Notes: a model not told the origin generated them from the letters alone. A stretch of 64,000 bases of DNA from Lyngbya aestuarii BL J (GCF_000478195.2 NZ_AUZM01000015.1:1-64000), one strand, 5' to 3'. Shown: positions 34,883 through 47,224, numbered from the stretch's first letter. Program-made: numbers and translations.

Positions 34883-35093
34883 GGAGTTTTGGTTATAGTA
34901 GAATTAGAAAATGAGCAGGTGTAGTCTGTCCAAATTAAAACAGATTATATCCCATCAAATCACTGAGGGTAAATTTTCTAGATCAAAGTAGAAAAATATC
35001 TCATTAGACTCTCTCAGTTTTTGATTTGAAACCTTTGAATAAAACTACCTTTTTTGCTTTTTGTCAGGGAACAATCACACCGGGAAAATTCAG

Positions 35094-36533
35094 ATGACTT
35101 CATTAACTACAGAAACACAAAAAATCGACAAAGGAAATATCGTTGTTGTTGATGATACGCCAGATAACTTGCGCCTGTTGGGTAATATTCTCAGAAAAGA
35201 AGGGTACAAAGTTCGATTAATTCCGAATGGAGAGTTAGCTTTATCGGGGATTGAGTTATTACGACCCGATCTGATTTTACTAGATATAATGATGCCGGAT
35301 ATGAACGGTTATGAAGTCTGTCAACACTTAAAAGCAAGAGAACACAGCCGGGATGTTCCGGTAATTTTTATTAGTGCGATTAATGAGGTTTCAGATAAAG
35401 TGAAAGCCTTTGAAGCCGGAGGAGTTGATTATATTACGAAGCCGTTTCAAGTTCAAGAGGTATTAGCCCGAGTCGAAACTCATTTAAAGATTCATTTTCT
35501 GCAAAAGAATTTACTCGAAAAAAATCAAGAGTTAAAAGTTACCCTCGAACAACTCACCGCCACTCAAAATCAACTGGTTCAATCGGAAAAAATGGCAGCA
35601 CTGGGACAGTTGGTTGCCGGAATTGCCCATGAAATTAATACTCCTTTGGGGGCGATTCGTTCTTCTATCGAAAATATTACCGCTTTTTTTAATGAGAATT
35701 TAGAACATCTACCCGAAGTTCTCCAAACTCTAAGTCCAAAAGCACAGCAAGATTTATTTGCTCTCTGTCAGCAGTCTTTAAAACAAACAACAGGTTATTC
35801 TAATAAAGAAAAACGTCAAGCTAAACGTGCTTTGATCCGTCAGCTAGAAGCTGATAATTTTACTAATGCAGATACGATTGCTGATACATTAGTTGATATC
35901 GGAATTATGGAAGGTTCATCACCAATTTTATCATTTTTACACACTCAAGATGGTCATAAAGTTCTGGATTTGGCGTATCAAATTACCAGTGTCAAAAAAA
36001 GTGCTAACACGATTAAAACCGCGACAGACCGAGCAGCAAAGGTTGTATTTGCCTTAAAAACTTATGCTCGATATGATCATTTTGGAAATCTCGTTGAAGC
36101 AAATATTATTGAAGGAATTGAAACGGTGTTAACGCTGTATCAAAATCAGATTAAGCAAGGGATCGAAGTGATCCGAAACTATCCTGATTCTATGCCTTCG
36201 ATTTTATGTTATCCTGATGAGCTAAATCAAGTGTGGACAAATCTAGTTCATAATGCCTTACAAGCGATGAATTATCAAGGGACGTTAACCATTGATGTTA
36301 TCTATGAAAGCCAAAACCTAGTGATTCATATTACTGATAGTGGTGATGGAATTCCCCCGGAAATTCAATCCAAAATTTTTGATCCTTTCTTTACTACAAA
36401 ACCCGCAGGTCAAGGAAGTGGTTTGGGTTTAGACATCGTTCAAAAAATCATTGCAAAACATCAAGGTAAAATAGAGGTAAAATCGGTTCCGAGTGAAACC
36501 ACATTTACCGTCTGTTTGCCCATGCAGAGTTAA
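35094..36533 (+). CDS. Response regulator/histidine kinase fusion (REC-HK)
   Basis: 479 residues from the ATG at 35094. The N-terminal receiver has D64 (LLDIMMPD) and the KPFQ lysine. A coiled coil leads to the phosphoacceptor helix with H179 (IAHEINTPL), then an inserted helical region (about 205-300), and HATPase_c ending GSGLGLDIV. No membrane helix. Its architecture matches the kinase at 20188, but a longer insertion lies between the H box and ATP lid. Two receiver proteins follow on the same strand, so it may phosphorylate them. A TTG at 35061 would add 11 residues. Confidence 0.9.
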   Translation: MTSLTTETQKIDKGNIVVVDDTPDNLRLLGNILRKEGYKVRLIPNGELALSGIELLRPDLILLDIMMPDMNGYEVCQHLKAREHSRDVPVIFISAINEVSDKVKAFEAGGVDYITKPFQVQEVLARVETHLKIHFLQKNLLEKNQELKVTLEQLTATQNQLVQSEKMAALGQLVAGIAHEINTPLGAIRSSIENITAFFNENLEHLPEVLQTLSPKAQQDLFALCQQSLKQTTGYSNKEKRQAKRALIRQLEADNFTNADTIADTLVDIGIMEGSSPILSFLHTQDGHKVLDLAYQITSVKKSANTIKTATDRAAKVVFALKTYARYDHFGNLVEANIIEGIETVLTLYQNQIKQGIEVIRNYPDSMPSILCYPDELNQVWTNLVHNALQAMNYQGTLTIDVIYESQNLVIHITDSGDGIPPEIQSKIFDPFFTTKPAGQGSGLGLDIVQKIIAKHQGKIEVKSVPSETTFTVCLPMQS

Positions 36534-36679
36534 TCACAATCTCTAGATTTAGAATTGAACGAATTGCATGGTATCCTATAAGCTGTAATGTGCTTTTCAG
36601 ATGAACCCTTTGCTATTCCGAGTTTGAATTGAGTTTTGCTCCCTAAATTACAATCCCAATTTCACTGAGGTTAGCTATA

Positions 36680-37117
36680 ATGTCTAAGCCCGTTATTTTA
36701 TGTGTCGATGATGAATCTGTCGTTTTAGATAGTTTAAAAATTCAGCTTAAAAATGCTTTTCGAGATGCTTATAGCTATGAAATGGCGGAAAGTTCTGATG
36801 AAGCTTGGGAAATTTTAGAAGAACTTTGTGAGGATAATAGTCATGTTCTCGTCATTGTTTCTGATTGGTTAATGCCGGGAATGAAAGGGGATGAATTTTT
36901 AATCAAAGTACATCAAAGATTTCCCAAAATTTTAAAGATCATGCTGACCGGACAAGCAGATATGGAAGCTGTAGAAAAGGCGATAGAACAAGCCAGTTTG
37001 TATCGATGTTTATCGAAGCCTTGGAACAGTGAAGAACTGATTACCACGATTAAATCAGGGTTAACTAACTATCAATATTCTCAAAACTATGAGCAAACCA
37101 GTGGTGATTTGTGTTGA
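36680..37117 (+). CDS. Single-domain response regulator
   Basis: 145 residues consisting of a receiver domain with D62 in SDWLMPGMKGDE, acidic pair DDE at residues 11-13, and SKPW near the C-terminus. The N-terminus (SKPVILCVDDE) is nearly the same as that of the next gene, so the two arose by duplication. Its last 29 bases overlap the start of the GGDEF gene. It may act as a phosphate sink or as a direct partner of the REC-GGDEF protein. Confidence 0.9.
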   Translation: MSKPVILCVDDESVVLDSLKIQLKNAFRDAYSYEMAESSDEAWEILEELCEDNSHVLVIVSDWLMPGMKGDEFLIKVHQRFPKILKIMLTGQADMEAVEKAIEQASLYRCLSKPWNSEELITTIKSGLTNYQYSQNYEQTSGDLC

Positions 37118-38129
37118 TGATGAACCAACTATTTTAGATAGCTTAAAAGTTGAACTTAGAAAAGCCTTAGAAAATCAATGTATTATTGAAGTAGCTGAAG
37201 GGGGAGAAGAAGCGCTAGAACTTTTAGATGAACTTGAGGAAGAAAACTCAGAGATTGCTGTTGTGTTATCCGATTATTTAATGCCGGGAATGAAAGGTGA
37301 TGAGCTACTCAAACTTATTCATCAAAGATTCCCGAAAACTTTAAATATATTGCTCACAGGACAAGCAGATTTACCCGCTCTGGGGAATGCAATCAAATAT
37401 GCAAAACTCTATCGATATATTGCTAAACCTTGGCAACCGGAGGATTTAAGGCTAACTGTAGTTGAAGCGGTTAACAGCTATGTTCAAGAGAAAAAACTCC
37501 AAGAACAAACGCTAAGACTACAACAAATGAATCAGGAGTTACAGCGATTAGCCGGAGAATTACAACAAGCAAATCGAGAACTTCAACGTTTGGCTGTGAC
37601 TGATAGTTTAACTCAATTGGCAAATCGTCGTCAATTTGATGAATATTTAATCCATGAATGGCTCAGAATGTTACGAGAACAGCAATTTTTATCAGTAATT
37701 TTATGTGATGTAGACTTTTTTAAAAATTACAACGATAAATATGGTCATCCCGCCGGAGATAATTGTTTAAGAAAGGTTGCTAAAGCCATTTGTCAACAAG
37801 TTCAGCGCCCTGGAGATTTAGCCGCTCGCTATGGTGGGGAAGAATTTGTGATTATCCTTCCTAATACTCAAGCCGAAGGTGCTGTTAAGATTGCCGAAGG
37901 AGTTCGTCAGGCTATAAAATCTCTAAAGATTCCCCATTCTCAATCTAAAATAGCAGATTGTATTACGGTAAGTTTGGGAGTGTCGAGTGTCGTTCCTCAG
38001 CCAAATGATTCACCCTCTAACTTGATTGCAACGGCGGATACTGCTCTCTACGAAGCTAAAAAAAAGGGTCGAGATTGTGTGATTTATAAACCCTTTTCTG
38101 ACTCATCTGATCTTGATCATTTACTCTAA
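37089..38129 (+). CDS. Response regulator diguanylate cyclase (REC-GGDEF)
   Basis: 346 residues. The receiver has D62 (LSDYLMPGMKGDE). A coiled-coil linker (about 125-170, repeated LQRLAxELQQ) joins the GGDEF domain. GGEEF is at 249-253 with the I-site RPGD five residues before. Both catalytic and inhibitory sites are intact, so active cyclic-di-GMP synthesis controlled by phosphorylation is expected, as in PleD- or WspR-type enzymes. Its ATG lies inside the preceding receiver gene (29-base overlap), with no own ribosome-binding site, which points to translational coupling. Confidence 0.93.
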   Translation: MSKPVVICVDDEPTILDSLKVELRKALENQCIIEVAEGGEEALELLDELEEENSEIAVVLSDYLMPGMKGDELLKLIHQRFPKTLNILLTGQADLPALGNAIKYAKLYRYIAKPWQPEDLRLTVVEAVNSYVQEKKLQEQTLRLQQMNQELQRLAGELQQANRELQRLAVTDSLTQLANRRQFDEYLIHEWLRMLREQQFLSVILCDVDFFKNYNDKYGHPAGDNCLRKVAKAICQQVQRPGDLAARYGGEEFVIILPNTQAEGAVKIAEGVRQAIKSLKIPHSQSKIADCITVSLGVSSVVPQPNDSPSNLIATADTALYEAKKKGRDCVIYKPFSDSSDLDHLL

Positions 38130-39300: not shown

Positions 39301-40098
39301 TTAAGTAAAAGCAGATAAAATTGCCCGTGCTGTTTGAATATTAGTCGCACAAATCACCTGATAGGTATCACACAATCTTAAGATAGCATCTATAGACGCT
39401 CGGTTCGGTCTACGAGCTAAGGGATCTCTCAGACAAACCAAAGCTTTAATGTTACCTAAGATAATTTGTGCGCCAATCGTATCTGCTCCCCCAACTAACA
39501 CATTAGAATTAATCACCTGTTTCACATTCAGATTAATATTCTGTTGCAAACTTTGGGCAACCCATTCCGGTGCAAAAATAGGTATATTGTACAAAATATC
39601 TATTTCCTTTTGTACCCAGTCTAGCAAGTCTGACATTTTGGTTTCATCTACCATCAGAATCATATACTTGCGATGCGCTCGAATTCCACTGTTGCGAATG
39701 TTCTCAACGGCCGATTGGGTAATACAATGAACGAGTTTAACGGCTAAATAAGGATGTTTGAGTTTGAGATTTTCAATATCATCAAAAGTCATAATGGCAA
39801 TTTGACCATCACTGGCTGCAATAAAATCAGCTTGGCGATCAATTGACTCTAGCAGCGCCATTTCTCCTAAAAAGTCTCCCGCAATTCGGCTTGGGTTGTC
39901 AACCTGATGATCATCGATAATACTAATTTCTCCACTGAGAAGCAATCCAAAAGAAGTATCACGTCCAGTTTTGGGCATGATCTCTTGTAAGTCAAAAAAC
40001 TTATGAATGGAAAAATATTCACAGATCAGTTCAATTTCTTCCGAGTAAAAATCCTTGAAAGTCTCTAAATTTTGAAATAAGTCCGCTTTCTCAGACAT
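39301..40098 (-). CDS. Cyclic-nucleotide-binding domain fused to a degenerate methylglyoxal-synthase-like domain
   Basis: 265 residues. The first 130 resemble a cNMP-binding domain (GLLLSGEISIIDD, GDFLGEMALLE). From about 142 the sequence aligns with methylglyoxal synthase along its full length: LVGGADTIGAQI matches GPLGGDQQIGA, CLRDPLARRP matches FLRDPLTAQP, LRLCDTYQVICATN matches LRLCDVYSIPLATN. Catalytic positions are changed: the AHD histidine is Val (MVDE), GGD is GGA, and the PHEPD His and Asp are Asn and Ser. Only the Asp of RDPL remains. It is probably a sensor or binding domain, not an active synthase. Effector unknown. Confidence 0.75.
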   Translation of the reverse strand: MSEKADLFQNLETFKDFYSEEIELICEYFSIHKFFDLQEIMPKTGRDTSFGLLLSGEISIIDDHQVDNPSRIAGDFLGEMALLESIDRQADFIAASDGQIAIMTFDDIENLKLKHPYLAVKLVHCITQSAVENIRNSGIRAHRKYMILMVDETKMSDLLDWVQKEIDILYNIPIFAPEWVAQSLQQNINLNVKQVINSNVLVGGADTIGAQIILGNIKALVCLRDPLARRPNRASIDAILRLCDTYQVICATNIQTARAILSAFT

Positions 40099-40355
40099 AA
40101 AGTCAGAACCCCAAGAGTATATGAGGAGATCAATGATCGCAGTCTACTTTTGGTCAAATCAGGAAGGCTTGACAGGTCGGGAAATACAAAGACTCAAATG
40201 TTGAGAGCCAGATTCTTCAGAAACTCAACTGAAGATTTGAGAATTGAAAATTTCCCTCGGTGAATCTGACCTCAATCTGCGCGTCAAAAATCCCCAACTA
40301 CAACTTATAATTAAATCAATATAATAACTGAATCGCACATCTATTCCCAAATTTG

Positions 40356-42221
40356 ATGAGTCTATCACAATTGATTGCATTTGAACCGATTGCGGCGATC
40401 GCTACAACTCCCCACGCCTGCCAACGACTGCAACCCTTGTGTCAGACTGCCGAGGTGACGCTCTATGTCCCTCAATCTTTGGGCAATATTCCTAAAACCC
40501 AAGTTTACCCCGACTCTCTACGACAACTCCTCCCGCAACTGTGGTCAAGTCATCGCGCCATTGTCTTCTGTCTGGCGTTAGGTGCCGTTGTCCGTCTGAT
40601 TGCCCCTCTATTACAGCACAAATCCACTGATCCGGCGATTATCGTAGTTGATGAAACAGGTCAATTTGTGATTAGTGTCTGTAGTGGTCATATTGGGGGT
40701 GGCGACAGGCTGGCCCAACTCGTCGCCCGGATATTGGGAGCAACTCCGATTTTAACCGGATCAGCCAACGCTTTGAACCTCCCCGGAATTGATATCTTAG
40801 GGGTGCCATTTGGCTGGAAACGCGGCAGCGGAGACTGGACAGGGGTAAGCGCTGCGATCGCCCAACAACAAACGGTACAAGTTCGGCAAGAAGCAGGTTC
40901 AACGCTTTGGCAACACCATCTCCCGGCGACTCATTCTTTTGATTTCACCTCAACCCAAACTCCCCAAGCCCAAATCTGGATTAGCCCTCAACACCGACAA
41001 CTCTCAACTGAAGATTTACCCCAAGTTCAGTGGCATCCGCGAGTGTTGTGGGTGGGTGTCGGCTGTGAACGCAATACCCCCAAAGCCGTGATTGAAACGG
41101 CAATTTTAGACGTTTTACGCGCTCATCAACTTGCAGAAGAAGCCGTTGCCGGAATTGCGAGTCTTGATCTCAAAGCGGATGAAACCGGATTAGTGGAACT
41201 TTGTCAAGCGCGTCATTGGCCATTACAGACCTTCAGCGCTGAAATTTTGCGTCAGGTGACGGTGCCGACTCCTTCTGAGATTGTTCAGTCTGAGGTGGGG
41301 ACTCCCAGTGTTGCTGAAGCTGCCGCCTTACAAGCCGCCCAAGTTCAAGCGTTACTTGTGTCTAAACAGATTTATCGTTCTCCTCAACCCCAACCGTCAG
41401 AAGCCGAAAGAATCGGTCAGGCGGTAACAGTAGCCATTGCGATCGCCCAACAGGAATATACCGGACGAGACGGACAATTATTGCTCGTCGGTACAGGCCC
41501 CGGTCAACTCAATCAAATGACTCCTGCCGCTCAAACTGCTGTGACTCAAGCCGATGTTGTGATTGGGTATTCGTTGTATTTGGATTTAATTACACCACTT
41601 TTGCGTCCGGGGCAAATTGTGGAATCGTATCCCATTACCCAGGAACGTCAACGGGCGGAACGGGCGATTGAGTTAGCCGAATGGGGTTTGACGGTGGCGG
41701 TGGTATCTTCGGGAGATTGTGGGATTTATGGGATGGCGGGGTTGGTGTTTGAACAGCTTCGCGCCCAAGGTTGGCGAGGGGAAACGCCTGGAGTGCAAGT
41801 GTTTCCGGGGATTAGTGCGTTGCAAGCGGCCGCTTCTCGGGTTGGGGCGCCGTTGATGCACGATTTTTGTGCAATTAGTTTGAGTGATTTGTTGACGCCT
41901 TGGGAGATGATTGAAAAGCGCTTAAAGGCGGCAGCTATGGCTGATTTTGTCTGTGCTTTATATAATCCGCGATCGCGTAGTCGTACAGAACAATTATCTC
42001 AGGCTCAGATGATCTTTTTACAGTTTCGTTCTCCCCAAACTCCCGTTGCTTTAGTGCGTTCGGCTTATCGAGACGATGAACAGATTACGTTGACTACGTT
42101 AGAGGAATTAACGGAAGTTTCTGTCGATATGTTAACAACGGTTTTGATTGGCAATCAAAGTACAACTTTTCACCAGAATTGGATGATTACACCCCGAGGA
42201 TATTTAGGATTTACTCAATAA
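40356..42221 (+). CDS. cobJ: CbiG/CobJ fusion: cobalamin biosynthesis protein with precorrin-3B C17-methyltransferase
   Basis: 621 residues. The N-terminal half is CbiG: an N-terminal module (IVFCLALGAVVRLIAPLL, SGHIGGGDRLAQLVA), a middle linker, and the C-terminal module (LWVGVGCERNTPK, LKADETGLVEL). From about residue 375 a tetrapyrrole methylase follows (LLLVGTGPGQLNQMTPAA, VSSGDCGIYGMAGLVFE, FCALYNPRSRSR near the C-terminus), i.e. CobJ/CbiH. It should carry out ring contraction and C17 methylation. The ATG at 40356 is preceded by a TTG; either fits. The gene is alone, 100 bases before the CBS-GAF kinase. Confidence 0.93.
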   Translation: MSLSQLIAFEPIAAIATTPHACQRLQPLCQTAEVTLYVPQSLGNIPKTQVYPDSLRQLLPQLWSSHRAIVFCLALGAVVRLIAPLLQHKSTDPAIIVVDETGQFVISVCSGHIGGGDRLAQLVARILGATPILTGSANALNLPGIDILGVPFGWKRGSGDWTGVSAAIAQQQTVQVRQEAGSTLWQHHLPATHSFDFTSTQTPQAQIWISPQHRQLSTEDLPQVQWHPRVLWVGVGCERNTPKAVIETAILDVLRAHQLAEEAVAGIASLDLKADETGLVELCQARHWPLQTFSAEILRQVTVPTPSEIVQSEVGTPSVAEAAALQAAQVQALLVSKQIYRSPQPQPSEAERIGQAVTVAIAIAQQEYTGRDGQLLLVGTGPGQLNQMTPAAQTAVTQADVVIGYSLYLDLITPLLRPGQIVESYPITQERQRAERAIELAEWGLTVAVVSSGDCGIYGMAGLVFEQLRAQGWRGETPGVQVFPGISALQAAASRVGAPLMHDFCAISLSDLLTPWEMIEKRLKAAAMADFVCALYNPRSRSRTEQLSQAQMIFLQFRSPQTPVALVRSAYRDDEQITLTTLEELTEVSVDMLTTVLIGNQSTTFHQNWMITPRGYLGFTQ

Positions 42222-42320: not shown

Positions 42321-45300
42321 ATGAGCGAAAATATTGGGTTTAATCAGGCTCCCGCTTTAGAAAAAATTCTGAATCAATCTCCACTCCTTGTTACTCCAGA
42401 AACTTGTATAACAGATGTTTTGACTTTAATCAATCAATCTCAGGAAACAGATTGTGTTTTAGTTGTGGAAGCCGAACAGCTTGTGGGAATCTTCACCGCT
42501 AAAGATGGAGTGAGACAAATCGTTGAGGGTTGTCTTCAAAAGATGCCGATTGAGAAAGTGATGACTCAGCCCGTGATCACACTCAAGCAGAGTGAATATC
42601 GAGATATTTTTCACGTTTTGTCTTTGTTTAAACAGCATCAAATTTGTCACCTTCCCATTCTCAATAGAGAAGGAAAACTACGAGGCTTGATTACACAAGA
42701 CAGTTTACTTCAATCCTTTGCTGCTGTTGATTTGCATAGTCAGGTTGAATCCCTACAGCAAGAAGTCTCTCAGAATAAGTTAGAAAACCAGGAAATATTA
42801 CAACAGCAAGTTCAGGAACAAACAGCAGCTTTAAATCAACAAATTGACTTGGATCGCATCTTGAGCAATATTGCTGATAACATTCGGCGTTCTCTTAATA
42901 TCGGTCAAATTTTGAATACGACTGTCACCGAAATTCAACAGTTACTCCAGGTTGATCGAGTTGTAATTTATCGCTTTAATCCCGACTGGAGTGGGGTAAT
43001 TATTGCTGAATCTGTAGGGGCTGGATGGCTGTCAATTTTAGGAAACTTTATTGACGATTCTTGCTTTTCTCCCAACTGGATTCAATCCTATCACAACGGT
43101 AAAATTCGAGTCATTTCTGATATTTATGCAGGCGAAATGTCATCCTGCCATCGCGAGTTACTCGAAACATTACAAGTTCGGGCTAAAGTTCTGGTTCCGA
43201 TTTTATTAAATTCTCCTGAGCGTTCATCCAGTGAATGTTTGTTATGGGGATTACTGATCGTTCATAACTGCGGTGAATCTCGCCACTGGCTACCCCATGA
43301 AGTTCAGTTATTAGAAAAATTGGCCATACAAATTTCAGTCGCCATCCAACAATCCGAATTTTATCACCAATTAGAAGTTTTGGTCACCAAACGAACACTT
43401 AAATTGATTGAAACTAACGGTCAGTTATACCAAGAAATTCAAGAGCGTCATCGAGTTAAAAATGCTCTCAAAAAGAGCAATGATCTTTTGCAAGCGATCA
43501 GCGAAATACAATCTCAATTTATTGCTAATGCCGAGTCAATAATTTTATTTGATGTTCTCCTGGAAAATATTTTGAATTTGACTGAAAGTGAATACAGTTT
43601 TATTGGGGAGATTTTTTATACCCCACAAGGAGAGCCTTATATCAATGAAAGCTATATCAAAATAAAAGGACAACCCCCTGTAAAAAAATCCCAAATTACC
43701 CATAAGGATTGGGGTCAAGAAACTGATCATTCATCTCAAAAAAACACTCAGAAAGATCTGGAATTTGAGACTCTAAAAACTCTATTTAGATCGGTGATGA
43801 TCAGGGGTGAACCCGTGATTGCTAATGATCTCAAAAATGACTCCATCAGAGAAGGAAAACCTCTTGATTATCCACCCTTAAATGCTTTTTTAGGAATTCC
43901 ATTTTATAGCCCTTCTCAAAAGTTAGTGGGAATCGTTGGAATCGCCAACTGTCCAAAGGGTTATGACGAAGCATTAATTCAATATTTACAGCCCTTTTTA
44001 GCCACCTGTGCCAATATTATAGAGGCTCATCGTAACAATCGTCGTCGTCAAGAAGTGGAAAAAGAGTTGCGAGAACGTGAAGCGAGATCTCGCCTTTTTA
44101 CTGATACCATGCTCAAGATTCGGGAATCTTTACAACTCAATAAAATTTTACAAGCGACGGTAACAGAAATTCAGAAAATTTTAGAGGTTGAACGAATCTT
44201 AATTTATCAAGTCTTTGCCAATGGTACGGGTCGTGTTGTCTTCGAGGAAGTTCAACCGGGATGGACTTCCATTCTTAATATTGACTTTCCAGAAGATGTT
44301 TTTCCCCTAGAGCATCAACAGACCTATTACAACGGACAAGCAAAAGCAATTTCTGATGTCAATCAGGCTTATGGTGAAATCACACCTTGTCTGCTGGATT
44401 TTGCAGAAACGTGGCAGATCAAAGCTAAGTTAATTGTACCTATATTACAAGACAATCATCTTTGGGGATTTATGATTGCTCATCAATGTTCAGCACCTAG
44501 AGATTGGAAAGAATTTGAGATCGAACTCCTGCAACAAATTACAATTCAACTAGGGGTTGCTCTGGCTCATGCGGAACTCCTCGAACGTGAAAAAGAACTC
44601 AATGAACTCAAGTCACGTTTTATCTCAATGGCTTCTCACGAATTTCGGACTCCTTTGACTTGGATTGCTTCTTCTGCTGGAATTATAGAAGATTATGGCG
44701 ATCGTCTTCAGTCTGAAAAGAAACAAAAACATTTCTCTCGGATTCAATCTTCGGTTCAGTATATGACTCAACTCCTGAATGATGTGCTAACCATTAGTCG
44801 TTCAGAAGTTTATCAGCTAGAATGTAACCCCACCTCTTTTGAACTGGTTGAGTTTTGTTCAGATTTAGTAGAAGAATTACAAACTTCAACTCACCAACAT
44901 CAGATTAATTTTAGTGTTTATTATGCAGATTTTCCTCAAGATGAAGTTAAAGTAATTCCAGTTTTTTTAGATGATAAACTATTACGGCAAATTCTCACAA
45001 ACTTATTAATAAATGCGATTAAATATTCACCCGAAGCTCAATCAATTAACTTTGAGATTATTCGTCAAGAGCAAGAAGTTATCTTCAATATTCAAGATTA
45101 TGGGATTGGCATTCCGCTTGCAGATCAATCTAGAATCTTTCAGTCTTTTCATCGAGCCAACAATATTGGTACGATTGCAGGTACAGGTTTAGGGCTGGCG
45201 ATTGTCAAGAACTGTGTTGAGGTTCAAGGCGGTGAAGTTACCTTTGATAGTCGGCTGGGAGAAGGTACAATATTTCAAGTTAAACTTCCTCGAATTCTTC

Positions 45301-45326
45301 CTCGCATTCTAGAAGAATCATCGTGA
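42321..45326 (+). CDS. CBS-GAF-GAF-GAF histidine kinase, first GAF a DXCF-type cyanobacteriochrome candidate
   Basis: 1001 residues. A CBS pair (about 10-130) is followed by three GAF domains and a histidine kinase (H773 in [18 protein letters not shown]). GAF1 (about 190-350) has the DXCF motif (D-S-C248-F) and the canonical C276-H277 (MSSCH), within a cyanobacteriochrome-like frame (VVIYRFNPDWSG, RVISDIYAGE). Both cysteines could hold a bilin, giving a blue/green-type photosensor. GAF2 (about 390-570) lacks these motifs. GAF3 (about 595-750) keeps the DW-type frame but has C-L instead of C-H, so probably no bilin. No membrane helix. The gene ends 149 bases before the REC-GGDEF-EAL gene, a likely partner. 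Confidence 0.88.
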   Translation: MSENIGFNQAPALEKILNQSPLLVTPETCITDVLTLINQSQETDCVLVVEAEQLVGIFTAKDGVRQIVEGCLQKMPIEKVMTQPVITLKQSEYRDIFHVLSLFKQHQICHLPILNREGKLRGLITQDSLLQSFAAVDLHSQVESLQQEVSQNKLENQEILQQQVQEQTAALNQQIDLDRILSNIADNIRRSLNIGQILNTTVTEIQQLLQVDRVVIYRFNPDWSGVIIAESVGAGWLSILGNFIDDSCFSPNWIQSYHNGKIRVISDIYAGEMSSCHRELLETLQVRAKVLVPILLNSPERSSSECLLWGLLIVHNCGESRHWLPHEVQLLEKLAIQISVAIQQSEFYHQLEVLVTKRTLKLIETNGQLYQEIQERHRVKNALKKSNDLLQAISEIQSQFIANAESIILFDVLLENILNLTESEYSFIGEIFYTPQGEPYINESYIKIKGQPPVKKSQITHKDWGQETDHSSQKNTQKDLEFETLKTLFRSVMIRGEPVIANDLKNDSIREGKPLDYPPLNAFLGIPFYSPSQKLVGIVGIANCPKGYDEALIQYLQPFLATCANIIEAHRNNRRRQEVEKELREREARSRLFTDTMLKIRESLQLNKILQATVTEIQKILEVERILIYQVFANGTGRVVFEEVQPGWTSILNIDFPEDVFPLEHQQTYYNGQAKAISDVNQAYGEITPCLLDFAETWQIKAKLIVPILQDNHLWGFMIAHQCSAPRDWKEFEIELLQQITIQLGVALAHAELLEREKELNELKSRFISMASHEFRTPLTWIASSAGIIEDYGDRLQSEKKQKHFSRIQSSVQYMTQLLNDVLTISRSEVYQLECNPTSFELVEFCSDLVEELQTSTHQHQINFSVYYADFPQDEVKVIPVFLDDKLLRQILTNLLINAIKYSPEAQSINFEIIRQEQEVIFNIQDYGIGIPLADQSRIFQSFHRANNIGTIAGTGLGLAIVKNCVEVQGGEVTFDSRLGEGTIFQVKLPRILPRILEESS

Positions 45327-45366
45327 TTTTCTAGAGTTAAATGTGATTAAAGTAGATGATAATATC

Positions 45367-45375
45367 TGTTATAAT
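45367..45375 (+). promoter_or_regulatory. Extended -10 upstream of the REC-GGDEF-EAL gene
   Basis: TGTTATAAT is a full extended -10 (TGnTATAAT), 100 bases before the ATG at 45476. No clear -35 is visible at 17 bases. It would allow expression independent of the kinase gene upstream. Function inferred. Confidence 0.45.
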
Positions 45376-45475
45376 AAATCAATTTATACTGATTATTAAA
45401 GTTTGTAAAACAAAATAGATTAGTTACCCTGAAATATGATATTCTATTAAAAACTAGATATTAATTTACCTCCTC

Positions 45476-47224
45476 ATGATTAAGATTTTAGTAATTGAAG
45501 ATGATGCGCAAGTCCGAGACAATATTCAAGTCATTTTAGAACTCGAAGATTTTGATGTAATTTTAGCTAAAGATGGTCAATCCGGTCTTGAAAAAGCGAT
45601 CGCAAGCTCACCCGATTTGATTGTTTGTGATGTCATGATGCCACAGATGGATGGATTTGAAGTTTTGTCTGCTTTACAATCTATAGAAGCAACGAGTAAT
45701 ATTCCTTTCATTTTTTTAACGGCTAAAGCGGATCGAAATGACTTACGTCAAGGAATGGAATCGGGAGCAGATGATTATTTAACAAAACCGTTTACACCAA
45801 AAGAATTGATCAAGGCAATTCAAATTCGTCTGGATAAAAAAGAAAAATATAAGCAAAAATACACTCAGAAAATTCAAGATATTTCAGAACAACTTGAACA
45901 TCAACTCTATTTTGATCACGTCACCAATTTACCCAATCGCCTCTCACTACGAGAACAATTTAACCAGAGGTTAGCTAAAACTCAATTTATAGCAGCTAAA
46001 ACTCAAATGTTGCCTATATTTTGTTTGAGTTTAGATCGCTTCAATCAAATCCAAAAAAACTTGGGATACGACTCCAGTGAACAATTACTTAAAGCATTTG
46101 TTGAACGATTGAAAAAAAGTTTAGATGCAAAAATTTTTCTAGCTTATCTGGGTGCTAATGAATTTGGAATGATTTTACCTGTTGTTGAGTATAAAACATT
46201 TATTGTTGATCTCGCTAATCAAATCAAGAGTCAACTCAATCAGCCCTTTATAGTCAACAATCAAGAGGTTTTTCTCTCGGCGAGTATTGGGATTGCTCTT
46301 TATGAAAAAGATGCTCAAGACATTGAAAAAATTCTTCAAAAAGCGAAGAAAGCGATGTATAAAGTTCAGGAAAATGGAGGAAATGACTGTGAGTTTTACA
46401 GTTGGGTTCTTGATGTGCATACTTCTCGAAGACAGAGACTAGAAAATGATCTTCACTATGCGATTGAGCGAGGAGAACTATCCGTTCACTATCAACCTCA
46501 AGTTAGCCTAAAAACGGGAAAGATCATGGGTTGTGAAGCTTTGGCTCGTTGGTCACATCCGACTTATAATATGATTTCACCAGATACTTTTATTCCAATT
46601 GCTGAAGAAATTGGTTTAATTGATAAAATTGGAGAATGGGTTTTAGTTCAAGCCTGTAAAGACCTAAAAAAATGGCAAGCTTTTGGATTTATGAGTTTAA
46701 AAATGGCTGTTAATATTTCTGTTTTTCAATTAAACAAAGCTGATTTTCGCCAAAAATCAATTAATACTTTATTAGCCAATAATATTCTACCTAAATATAT
46801 AGAGTTTGAGTTAACCGAAAGTTGTCTGGTACAAGATTTGGTGATGGCAAAACAAAAAATAGAAGCTTTAAATTCTTTAGATATTAGAGTTTCTATAGAT
46901 GATTTTGGGACGGGTTATTCATCGCTAAAATCTTTACAAAAATTACCTTTCAATACCTTAAAAATAGATCGGTCTTTTATTCAAAATGTTGAGACTAATC
47001 CGAGTAATTCTGCAATTACCAGTAATTTAATTAAAATTGCACGTAGTTTAGGTTTAAAAGTCGTTGCAGAAGGAGTAGAAACAGTCGGAGAACTGAATTT
47101 TTTAAAACAGCATCAATGTGATGGGATTCAAGGCTTTATCTTCAGTTATCCTCTCCCGGCTTCTGAAATGACGAACTTACTCAGAGAAGGAAAATGCTTA
47201 AAAATTCAGGAATCGTTGCTATAA
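45476..47224 (+). CDS. REC-GGDEF-EAL response regulator with degenerate GGDEF
   Basis: 582 residues. The receiver has D52 (VCDVMMPQ). The GGDEF domain (about 140-310) has GANEF (226-230) in place of GG(D/E)EF, so it should not make cyclic di-GMP. The EAL domain is intact: EAL (354-356), FELTES, SIDDFGTGYSSL, KIDRSFI and AEGVET. The net activity expected is a phosphodiesterase controlled by phosphorylation, with the dead GGDEF possibly binding GTP. The gene follows the CBS-GAF kinase. Confidence 0.92.
   Translation: MIKILVIEDDAQVRDNIQVILELEDFDVILAKDGQSGLEKAIASSPDLIVCDVMMPQMDGFEVLSALQSIEATSNIPFIFLTAKADRNDLRQGMESGADDYLTKPFTPKELIKAIQIRLDKKEKYKQKYTQKIQDISEQLEHQLYFDHVTNLPNRLSLREQFNQRLAKTQFIAAKTQMLPIFCLSLDRFNQIQKNLGYDSSEQLLKAFVERLKKSLDAKIFLAYLGANEFGMILPVVEYKTFIVDLANQIKSQLNQPFIVNNQEVFLSASIGIALYEKDAQDIEKILQKAKKAMYKVQENGGNDCEFYSWVLDVHTSRRQRLENDLHYAIERGELSVHYQPQVSLKTGKIMGCEALARWSHPTYNMISPDTFIPIAEEIGLIDKIGEWVLVQACKDLKKWQAFGFMSLKMAVNISVFQLNKADFRQKSINTLLANNILPKYIEFELTESCLVQDLVMAKQKIEALNSLDIRVSIDDFGTGYSSLKSLQKLPFNTLKIDRSFIQNVETNPSNSAITSNLIKIARSLGLKVVAEGVETVGELNFLKQHQCDGIQGFIFSYPLPASEMTNLLREGKCLKIQESLL

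Follow-up and report, generated by a model that had tools for sequence, protein, structure and literature searches.

We analysed a 64,000-nucleotide stretch of the Lyngbya aestuarii BL J genome (GCF_000478195.2, NZ_AUZM01000015.1:1-64000; hereafter the window), in which a sensor histidine kinase gene is followed on the same strand by a gene for a REC-GGDEF-EAL response regulator. The explanation we favour, and hold as a whole to be reasonably probable, is that the kinase is a soluble protein with two bilin-binding cyanobacteriochrome (CBCR) domains and an N-terminal CBS pair, and that it would pass light-colour information through receiver residue D52 to the neighbouring EAL protein, predicted to degrade cyclic di-GMP (c-di-GMP). 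Both open reading frames (ORFs), the D246-S-C248-F and C276-H277 motifs, the CBS pair, D52 and an intact EAL site had been named in an initial annotation of this locus, and all were found as described there. Pfam recognised CBS, three GAF stretches, HisKA and HATPase_c in the kinase, in which a long helix joins the CBS pair to GAF1. The features of the kinase gene are as follows.

42321-45326, + strand: sensor histidine kinase gene, 1001 amino acids (aa), CBS-CBS-coiled coil-GAF1-GAF2-GAF3-HisKA-HATPase (ORF call, Pfam, model)
42378-42725, + strand: CBS pair, residues about 20-135, motifs GIFTAKD (56-62) and GLITQDS (122-128) (Pfam for the second copy, profile match)
42903-43346, + strand: GAF1, DXCF-type CBCR domain, residues 195-342 (Pfam, PDB search, tree, conservation, model)
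43056-43067, + strand: D246-S247-C248-F249, second-cysteine motif (motif, alignment)
43146-43151, + strand: C276-H277, canonical bilin-attachment cysteine, with CHRE beginning at 276 (motif, alignment)
43545-44024, + strand: GAF2, residues 409-568, GAF_2 family, with no recognised bilin cysteine (Pfam)
44100-44579, + strand: GAF3, CBCR domain of the RcaE/CcaS lineage, residues 594-753 (RcaE 8k9o, tree)
44295-44297, + strand: D659, aligned with the protochromic Glu of RcaE (alignment)
44388-44393, + strand: C690-L691, canonical Cys with Leu replacing His as in RcaE (alignment)
44610-44807, + strand: HisKA, phospho-acceptor H773 (codon 44637-44639) (Pfam, motif)
44970-45290, + strand: HATPase_c catalytic domain (Pfam)

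GAF1 is a DXCF-type domain

The identification of GAF1 as a DXCF-type CBCR domain, already made in the initial annotation, was borne out by matches in the PDB, by cysteines equivalent to those of TePixJ, by conservation and by a structural model. The 60 best hits of the GAF1 sequence among solved structures include cyanobacteriochromes and phytochromes, with expect (E) values for CBCR GAF domains down to 1.7e-39 (6oap). The spacing between C248 and C276 (28 residues) equals that of the DPCF...CH motifs of TePixJ, represented here by a sequence identical to PDB 2m7u/4glq. When the CBS-GAF1 model (mean predicted local distance difference test score, pLDDT, 77; about 70-93 across GAF1) was compared with 4glq, a Z score of 23.7 and a deviation of 2.1 Å over 149 residues placed it in the CBCR GAF fold. 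Model residues 190-346 lie on TePixJ residues 436-584 in the structure alignment, and C248 and C276 would correspond to TePixJ C494 and C522, provided that the alignment is ungapped up to them. Moreover, D246, C248, F249 and C276 are invariant in CBS-GAF1 relatives (7/7). Among the loci fetched from this genome, on which our GAF counts rest rather than on a whole-genome layout, 14 GAF domains, including that of the window, carry DXCF together with the canonical Cys.

In a phylogenetic tree, GAF1 clusters with 18 further domains, each preceded by CBS, albeit with weak support (80% by the Shimodaira-Hasegawa-like approximate likelihood-ratio test, SH-aLRT), and stands apart from this genome's PixJ-type domains. 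By its motif GAF1 is to be classed as DXCF-type, a class assignment that does not predict colour. DXCF domains vary in colour, and GAF1 falls outside the blue/green TePixJ-type group; for these reasons the blue/green assignment given in the initial annotation is not established. GAF1 probably switches in the blue or elsewhere at short wavelengths. In typical DXCF domains the covalent phycocyanobilin is isomerised to phycoviolobilin and photoconversion runs between blue and green; their defining chemistry also includes a second-Cys adduct at C10 (PMC11284453).

A probable second bilin site in GAF3

The best PDB match of GAF3 is RcaE (8k9o, E 1.4e-48), and in the tree GAF3 lies inside a 29-row RcaE clade with 98% SH-aLRT support. 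Its sister (97%) is a GAF domain of large CBS/DXCF/RcaE-type kinases from seven genomes of a genus of the same family, g10. GAF3 retains L691, the triad Lys (K703, in IKAK) and the RcaE-type VFP motif, and sits directly before HisKA. These features suggest a second probable bilin site, one overlooked by the initial annotation, which implied a single light-sensing GAF where we find two probable bilin GAF domains. More distant third GAF domains (CLVEY/CLVDY), outside the RcaE clade proper, are present at L157, L168, L174 and L175. Separately, near-RcaE-type GAF domains at L203, L204, L200 and L075 carry DXCF (DPCF/DSCF/DDCF) plus CH, CY or CL and may represent an RcaE-lineage group with two cysteines.

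Counting against our interpretation of this domain, GAF3 lacks the full Glu/Leu/Lys protochromic triad, which we take to be E217, L249 and K261 in RcaE, and has D659, L691 and K703 instead. Because D659 replaces Glu, we file GAF3 by its RcaE/CcaS lineage and do not assign it a protochromic green/red role; a switch of the green/red type is likely. It is possible, though in our judgement unlikely, that a single GAF of the kinase is photoactive, with GAF1 as the sensor and GAF3 failing to switch protochromically after the change from Glu to Asp, or the reverse. D659 is indeed the sole non-Glu residue among the RcaE-clade GAF domains examined, the other non-Glu letters in the triad listing being out-of-register pattern hits, but Asp is a conservative replacement, the Cys, Leu and Lys of GAF3 are kept, and its CBCR sequence is otherwise intact.

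CBS pair and bilin supply

Both CBS repeats match solved CBS pairs by profile (E 1.2e-21), and a model of residues 1-150 has a mean pLDDT of 81. The first motif, GIFTAKD, is complete; the second, GLITQDS, ends in Ser, without the final Asp/Asn. An adenylate ligand for the CBS pair is plausible. The structural re-alignment list consists entirely of GAF hits and is uninformative on the CBS part.

A single heme oxygenase and a single ferredoxin-dependent bilin reductase are encoded in the genome; the reductase was typed as PcyA, scoring 362 bits where the cut-off is 206, and phycocyanobilin is therefore the likely chromophore of both GAF1 and GAF3. No second bilin reductase was found in the genome, which makes a phycoerythrobilin route unlikely. 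We regard it as very improbable that the GAF domains carry no bilin and that the protein is a CBS/GAF sensor of small molecules or redox state: many cyanobacterial GAF domains, several of them in this genome, do lack bilin cysteines, but neither domain has lost an attachment cysteine, relatives conserve these residues too, and HO1 and PcyA are encoded in the genome.

The neighbouring regulator is most likely a phosphodiesterase

The second gene lies 149 bp downstream of the kinase gene, and Pfam recognised REC, GGDEF and EAL domains in its product.

45327-45475, + strand: intergenic gap, 149 bp (sequence read directly)
45476-47224, + strand: response regulator gene, REC-(degenerate GGDEF)-EAL, 582 aa, probable c-di-GMP phosphodiesterase (ORF call, Pfam, residue check)
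45485-45823, + strand: REC domain, phospho-acceptor D52 (45629-45631) (Pfam, residues)
45908-46384, + strand: degenerate GGDEF domain, GANEF at 46151-46165 (residues 226-230) (Pfam, residues)
46445-47152, + strand: EAL domain with intact catalytic residues (Pfam, PDB match, residues)

The receiver keeps D9, D10, D52, T82 and K104, and the EAL domain keeps E354, N413, E445, D475, D476, K496, E532 and Q552; the EAL catalytic residues are also complete in nearly all relatives. Of the REC-GGDEF-EAL architecture initially annotated, the intact EAL and REC D52 stand, and the GGDEF domain is degenerate: its motif reads GANEF and the surrounding substrate residues are gone, as in most relatives. A diguanylate cyclase role was rejected on these grounds. 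Because the GGDEF domain is degenerate, the regulator is most likely a phosphodiesterase only, and EAL phosphodiesterases are among its closest relatives with a solved structure or a name.

The degenerate GGDEF domain would also fit a non-enzymatic role, as sensor or adaptor of c-di-GMP, an alternative that we consider improbable given the complete EAL site here and in nearly all relatives, and the phosphodiesterases among the nearest of them. In its favour, and counting against an enzymatic reading, two related proteins encoded next to CBS-DXCF kinases have altered EAL motifs (DSFGSD, KGVE). Their REC-GGDEF-EAL genes (L150, 1523-3301; L156, 7920-9698) overlap the kinase genes, and the proteins may be receptors, not enzymes.

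Evidence that the kinase and the regulator are partners

Three observations, none of them conclusive, suggest that the kinase probably controls the neighbouring c-di-GMP-degrading enzyme. First, at C7 in the same genome the gene of a short kinase, ranked third in the whole-kinase search with the query included, immediately precedes that of the regulator's closest paralogue; the genome thus holds a second, paralogous kinase/REC-GGDEF-EAL pair. Second, the genes of several regulator relatives in other genomes directly follow a kinase gene. Third, CBS-DXCF proteins recur beside GGDEF-EAL proteins. Within the CBS-DXCF clade, a REC-GGDEF-EAL gene is directly downstream at L150, L156 and L157 and within two genes at L170 and L174, and a more distant CBS-GAF1-histidine kinase (HK) protein, L153, has one 27 bp downstream. 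At L151 (3233-6568) CBS, a DXCF GAF, PAS, GGDEF and EAL are joined in a single protein, a one-piece counterpart of the window pair. The link to c-di-GMP breakdown suggested in the initial annotation gains support from this recurrent adjacency or fusion, from the intact EAL and from the C7 pair. Moreover, H773 of the kinase and D52 of the receiver are both present.

None of 20 RcaE-type control loci has GGDEF-EAL neighbours, and clusters of the RcaE-RcaF-RcaC kind are found there instead. Against these controls, a Fisher test gave p 0.04 for 4/18 loci and p 0.09 when the near-identical L150 and L156 were treated as one; with 25 EAL hits as background and a gene number assumed to be 6000, the chance was 1e-5, and 4e-4 at a doubled rate. 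Since the number of genes is assumed and the loci are related, these adjacency values serve as guides only.

Several observations weigh against the partnership. The near-identity of the L150 and L156 loci leaves few independent cases of adjacency. The two window genes are 149 bp apart, and TGTTATAAT at 45367-45375, in the gap, could serve as the extended -10 element of a separate promoter; no terminator-like site was found in the gap. No orthologue of the whole kinase, and hence no orthologous copy of this exact pair, was found in the 388 class genomes. Finally, the kinases of genus g10 that are equipped with these same sensors have no adjacent REC-GGDEF-EAL gene. These observations leave some room for a genuine two-CBCR kinase whose partner is encoded elsewhere, for instance a distant orphan regulator, with the EAL neighbour present by chance or separately regulated. 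The possible promoter, the absence of an orthologous pair from the other genomes searched and the several CBS-DXCF kinases that adjoin REC-HK proteins instead would fit such an arrangement; the repeated adjacency or fusion of CBS-DXCF and GGDEF-EAL proteins, and the paralogous pair in the same genome, argue against it, and we judge it unlikely.

Proposed mechanism

Building on the observed domains, motifs, conservation, lineage, gene order and bilin genes, we infer the bilin attachment, the colours, the CBS ligand, the phosphotransfer, the co-transcription and the direction of effect. In the mechanism that we propose, GAF1 and GAF3 would both be loaded with phycocyanobilin made by the heme oxygenase and PcyA, and the N-terminal CBS pair may contribute an adenine-nucleotide input. 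Depending on its colour, light would shift the kinase/phosphatase balance at H773, from which the phosphoryl group would pass to D52 of the neighbouring protein. EAL activity would then shift and c-di-GMP fall or rise, tying light colour to the choice between sessile and motile life. A more elaborate and tentative version, which we think doubtful, would make the kinase a three-colour (blue/green/red) comparator, in which the DXCF and RcaE-lineage switches share a green band, the CBS pair senses adenylates and gates the kinase by the energy charge of the cell, the outcome governs c-di-GMP breakdown through an EAL regulator dedicated to the kinase, and the Asp of GAF3 shifts pKa and colour.

Distribution and relatives

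Matches spanning both CBS and GAF1 were found at 25 places in 20 of the 388 class genomes sampled, and 17 of 28 GAF domains with CBS upstream have DXCF and the canonical Cys. The CBS-CBCR combination, which the first description held to be uncommon, is thus recurrent and not rare, occurring in at least 20 of these genomes. No full-length orthologue of the kinase was found in the 388 class genomes at E 1e-110, none of its CBS-GAF1-GAF2-GAF3 part among 61 family genomes, and a contig scan for a full-length orthologue returned unrelated kinases only.

The window kinase and the kinases of genus g10 each combine a DXCF GAF with an RcaE-type GAF; their parts are ordered differently and their DXCF domains are unrelated. 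Orthology between GAF1 and the DXCF GAF of the g10 kinases was rejected, the two falling in separate clades of the tree. The shared sensor set looks convergent or shuffled. The g10 proteins (L143-L146, L158-L160), with a CBS-PAS-DXCF GAF-RcaE-type GAF-HK-REC layout, have the same kinds of sensor as the window kinase, and their RcaE-type GAF is 58-59% identical to GAF3; GAF2 is 46-47% identical to a GAF present in some of them. They differ in part order, in a DXCF GAF of another lineage and in being PAS-bearing hybrid kinases.

Another CBS-CBCR protein beside c-di-GMP genes is encoded in the same genome at L142 (G000:C7:63000-80000). The gene of this 1944-aa CBS-PAS-RcaE-lineage GAF-PAS-kinase is transcribed divergently from a kinase/REC-GGDEF-EAL/REC-GGDEF-EAL/REC-HK/REC-HK cluster.

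Comparison with known systems

GAF1 shares its fold, its DXCF and CH cysteine positions and their spacing with the blue/green TePixJ GAF, but belongs to a separate, CBS-associated clade, and its output is a kinase whereas TePixJ is a chemoreceptor. GAF3 shares with the green/red chromatic-acclimation kinases RcaE and CcaS its clade, the Cys-Leu pair, the triad Lys, the VFP motif and the position before HisKA; it differs in having Asp for Glu and in following CBS, a DXCF GAF and a further GAF. The neighbour of the window kinase is a REC-GGDEF-EAL protein, whereas the RcaE-type control loci have RcaF/RcaC-type regulators. The best Foldseek match of the CBS-GAF1 model is PDB 6oap, a 'dual sensor histidine kinase' with two sensor inputs and one CBCR GAF. 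We take 6oap to be PPHK, with a receiver and one CBCR, whereas the window kinase has CBS and two CBCR domains.

Most accounts of how light colour controls c-di-GMP in cyanobacteria concern single-polypeptide systems (SesA/B/C, Cph2). If our interpretation is correct, the window would hold a counterpart split between kinase and response regulator, with a CBS input beside two unlike photosensors, and would show how a single kinase integrates several colours and perhaps energy state. The replacement of Glu by Asp would make it a natural setting in which to study protochromic tuning, and it could serve in the construction of multi-colour optogenetic kinases. Its parts are known, but a kinase with two CBCR domains and CBS next to a c-di-GMP degrader appears to be undescribed, and none of the literature searched described CBS-containing cyanobacteriochromes. 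SesA, SesB and SesC of Thermosynechococcus are phycoviolobilin cyanobacteriochromes, with DXCF-type chemistry, through which light colour controls c-di-GMP (PMC8846402); they hold sensor and GGDEF/EAL in one chain, whereas we propose a two-component relay for the window. A precedent for kinase control of a REC-type c-di-GMP enzyme is CdgK-CdgS of Anabaena PCC 7120, a co-transcribed histidine kinase and REC-type enzyme (PMC9927289). CdgK, in contrast to the window kinase, is membrane-anchored and is not described as a CBCR kinase, and CdgS is a diguanylate cyclase whereas the window protein is a probable phosphodiesterase.

Neighbouring genes

An Rfam scan of the 64-kb window returned no RNA element. 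Directly upstream of the kinase gene, 40353-42221 (+) encodes a CbiG-CobJ-like cobalamin biosynthesis fusion; its G+C content is 50%, and the signalling pair has 38% and 34%. The product of the gene at 39301-40098 (-) has 265 aa; it shows a weak match, under the Pfam cut-off, to a cyclic-nucleotide-binding domain, and its C-terminal half has no domain assigned. About 4 kb upstream, 35061-38129 holds in tandem a REC-HK (490 aa), a REC (145 aa) and a REC-GGDEF protein (346 aa, intact YGGEEF), a second c-di-GMP two-component cluster of synthetic rather than degrading activity.

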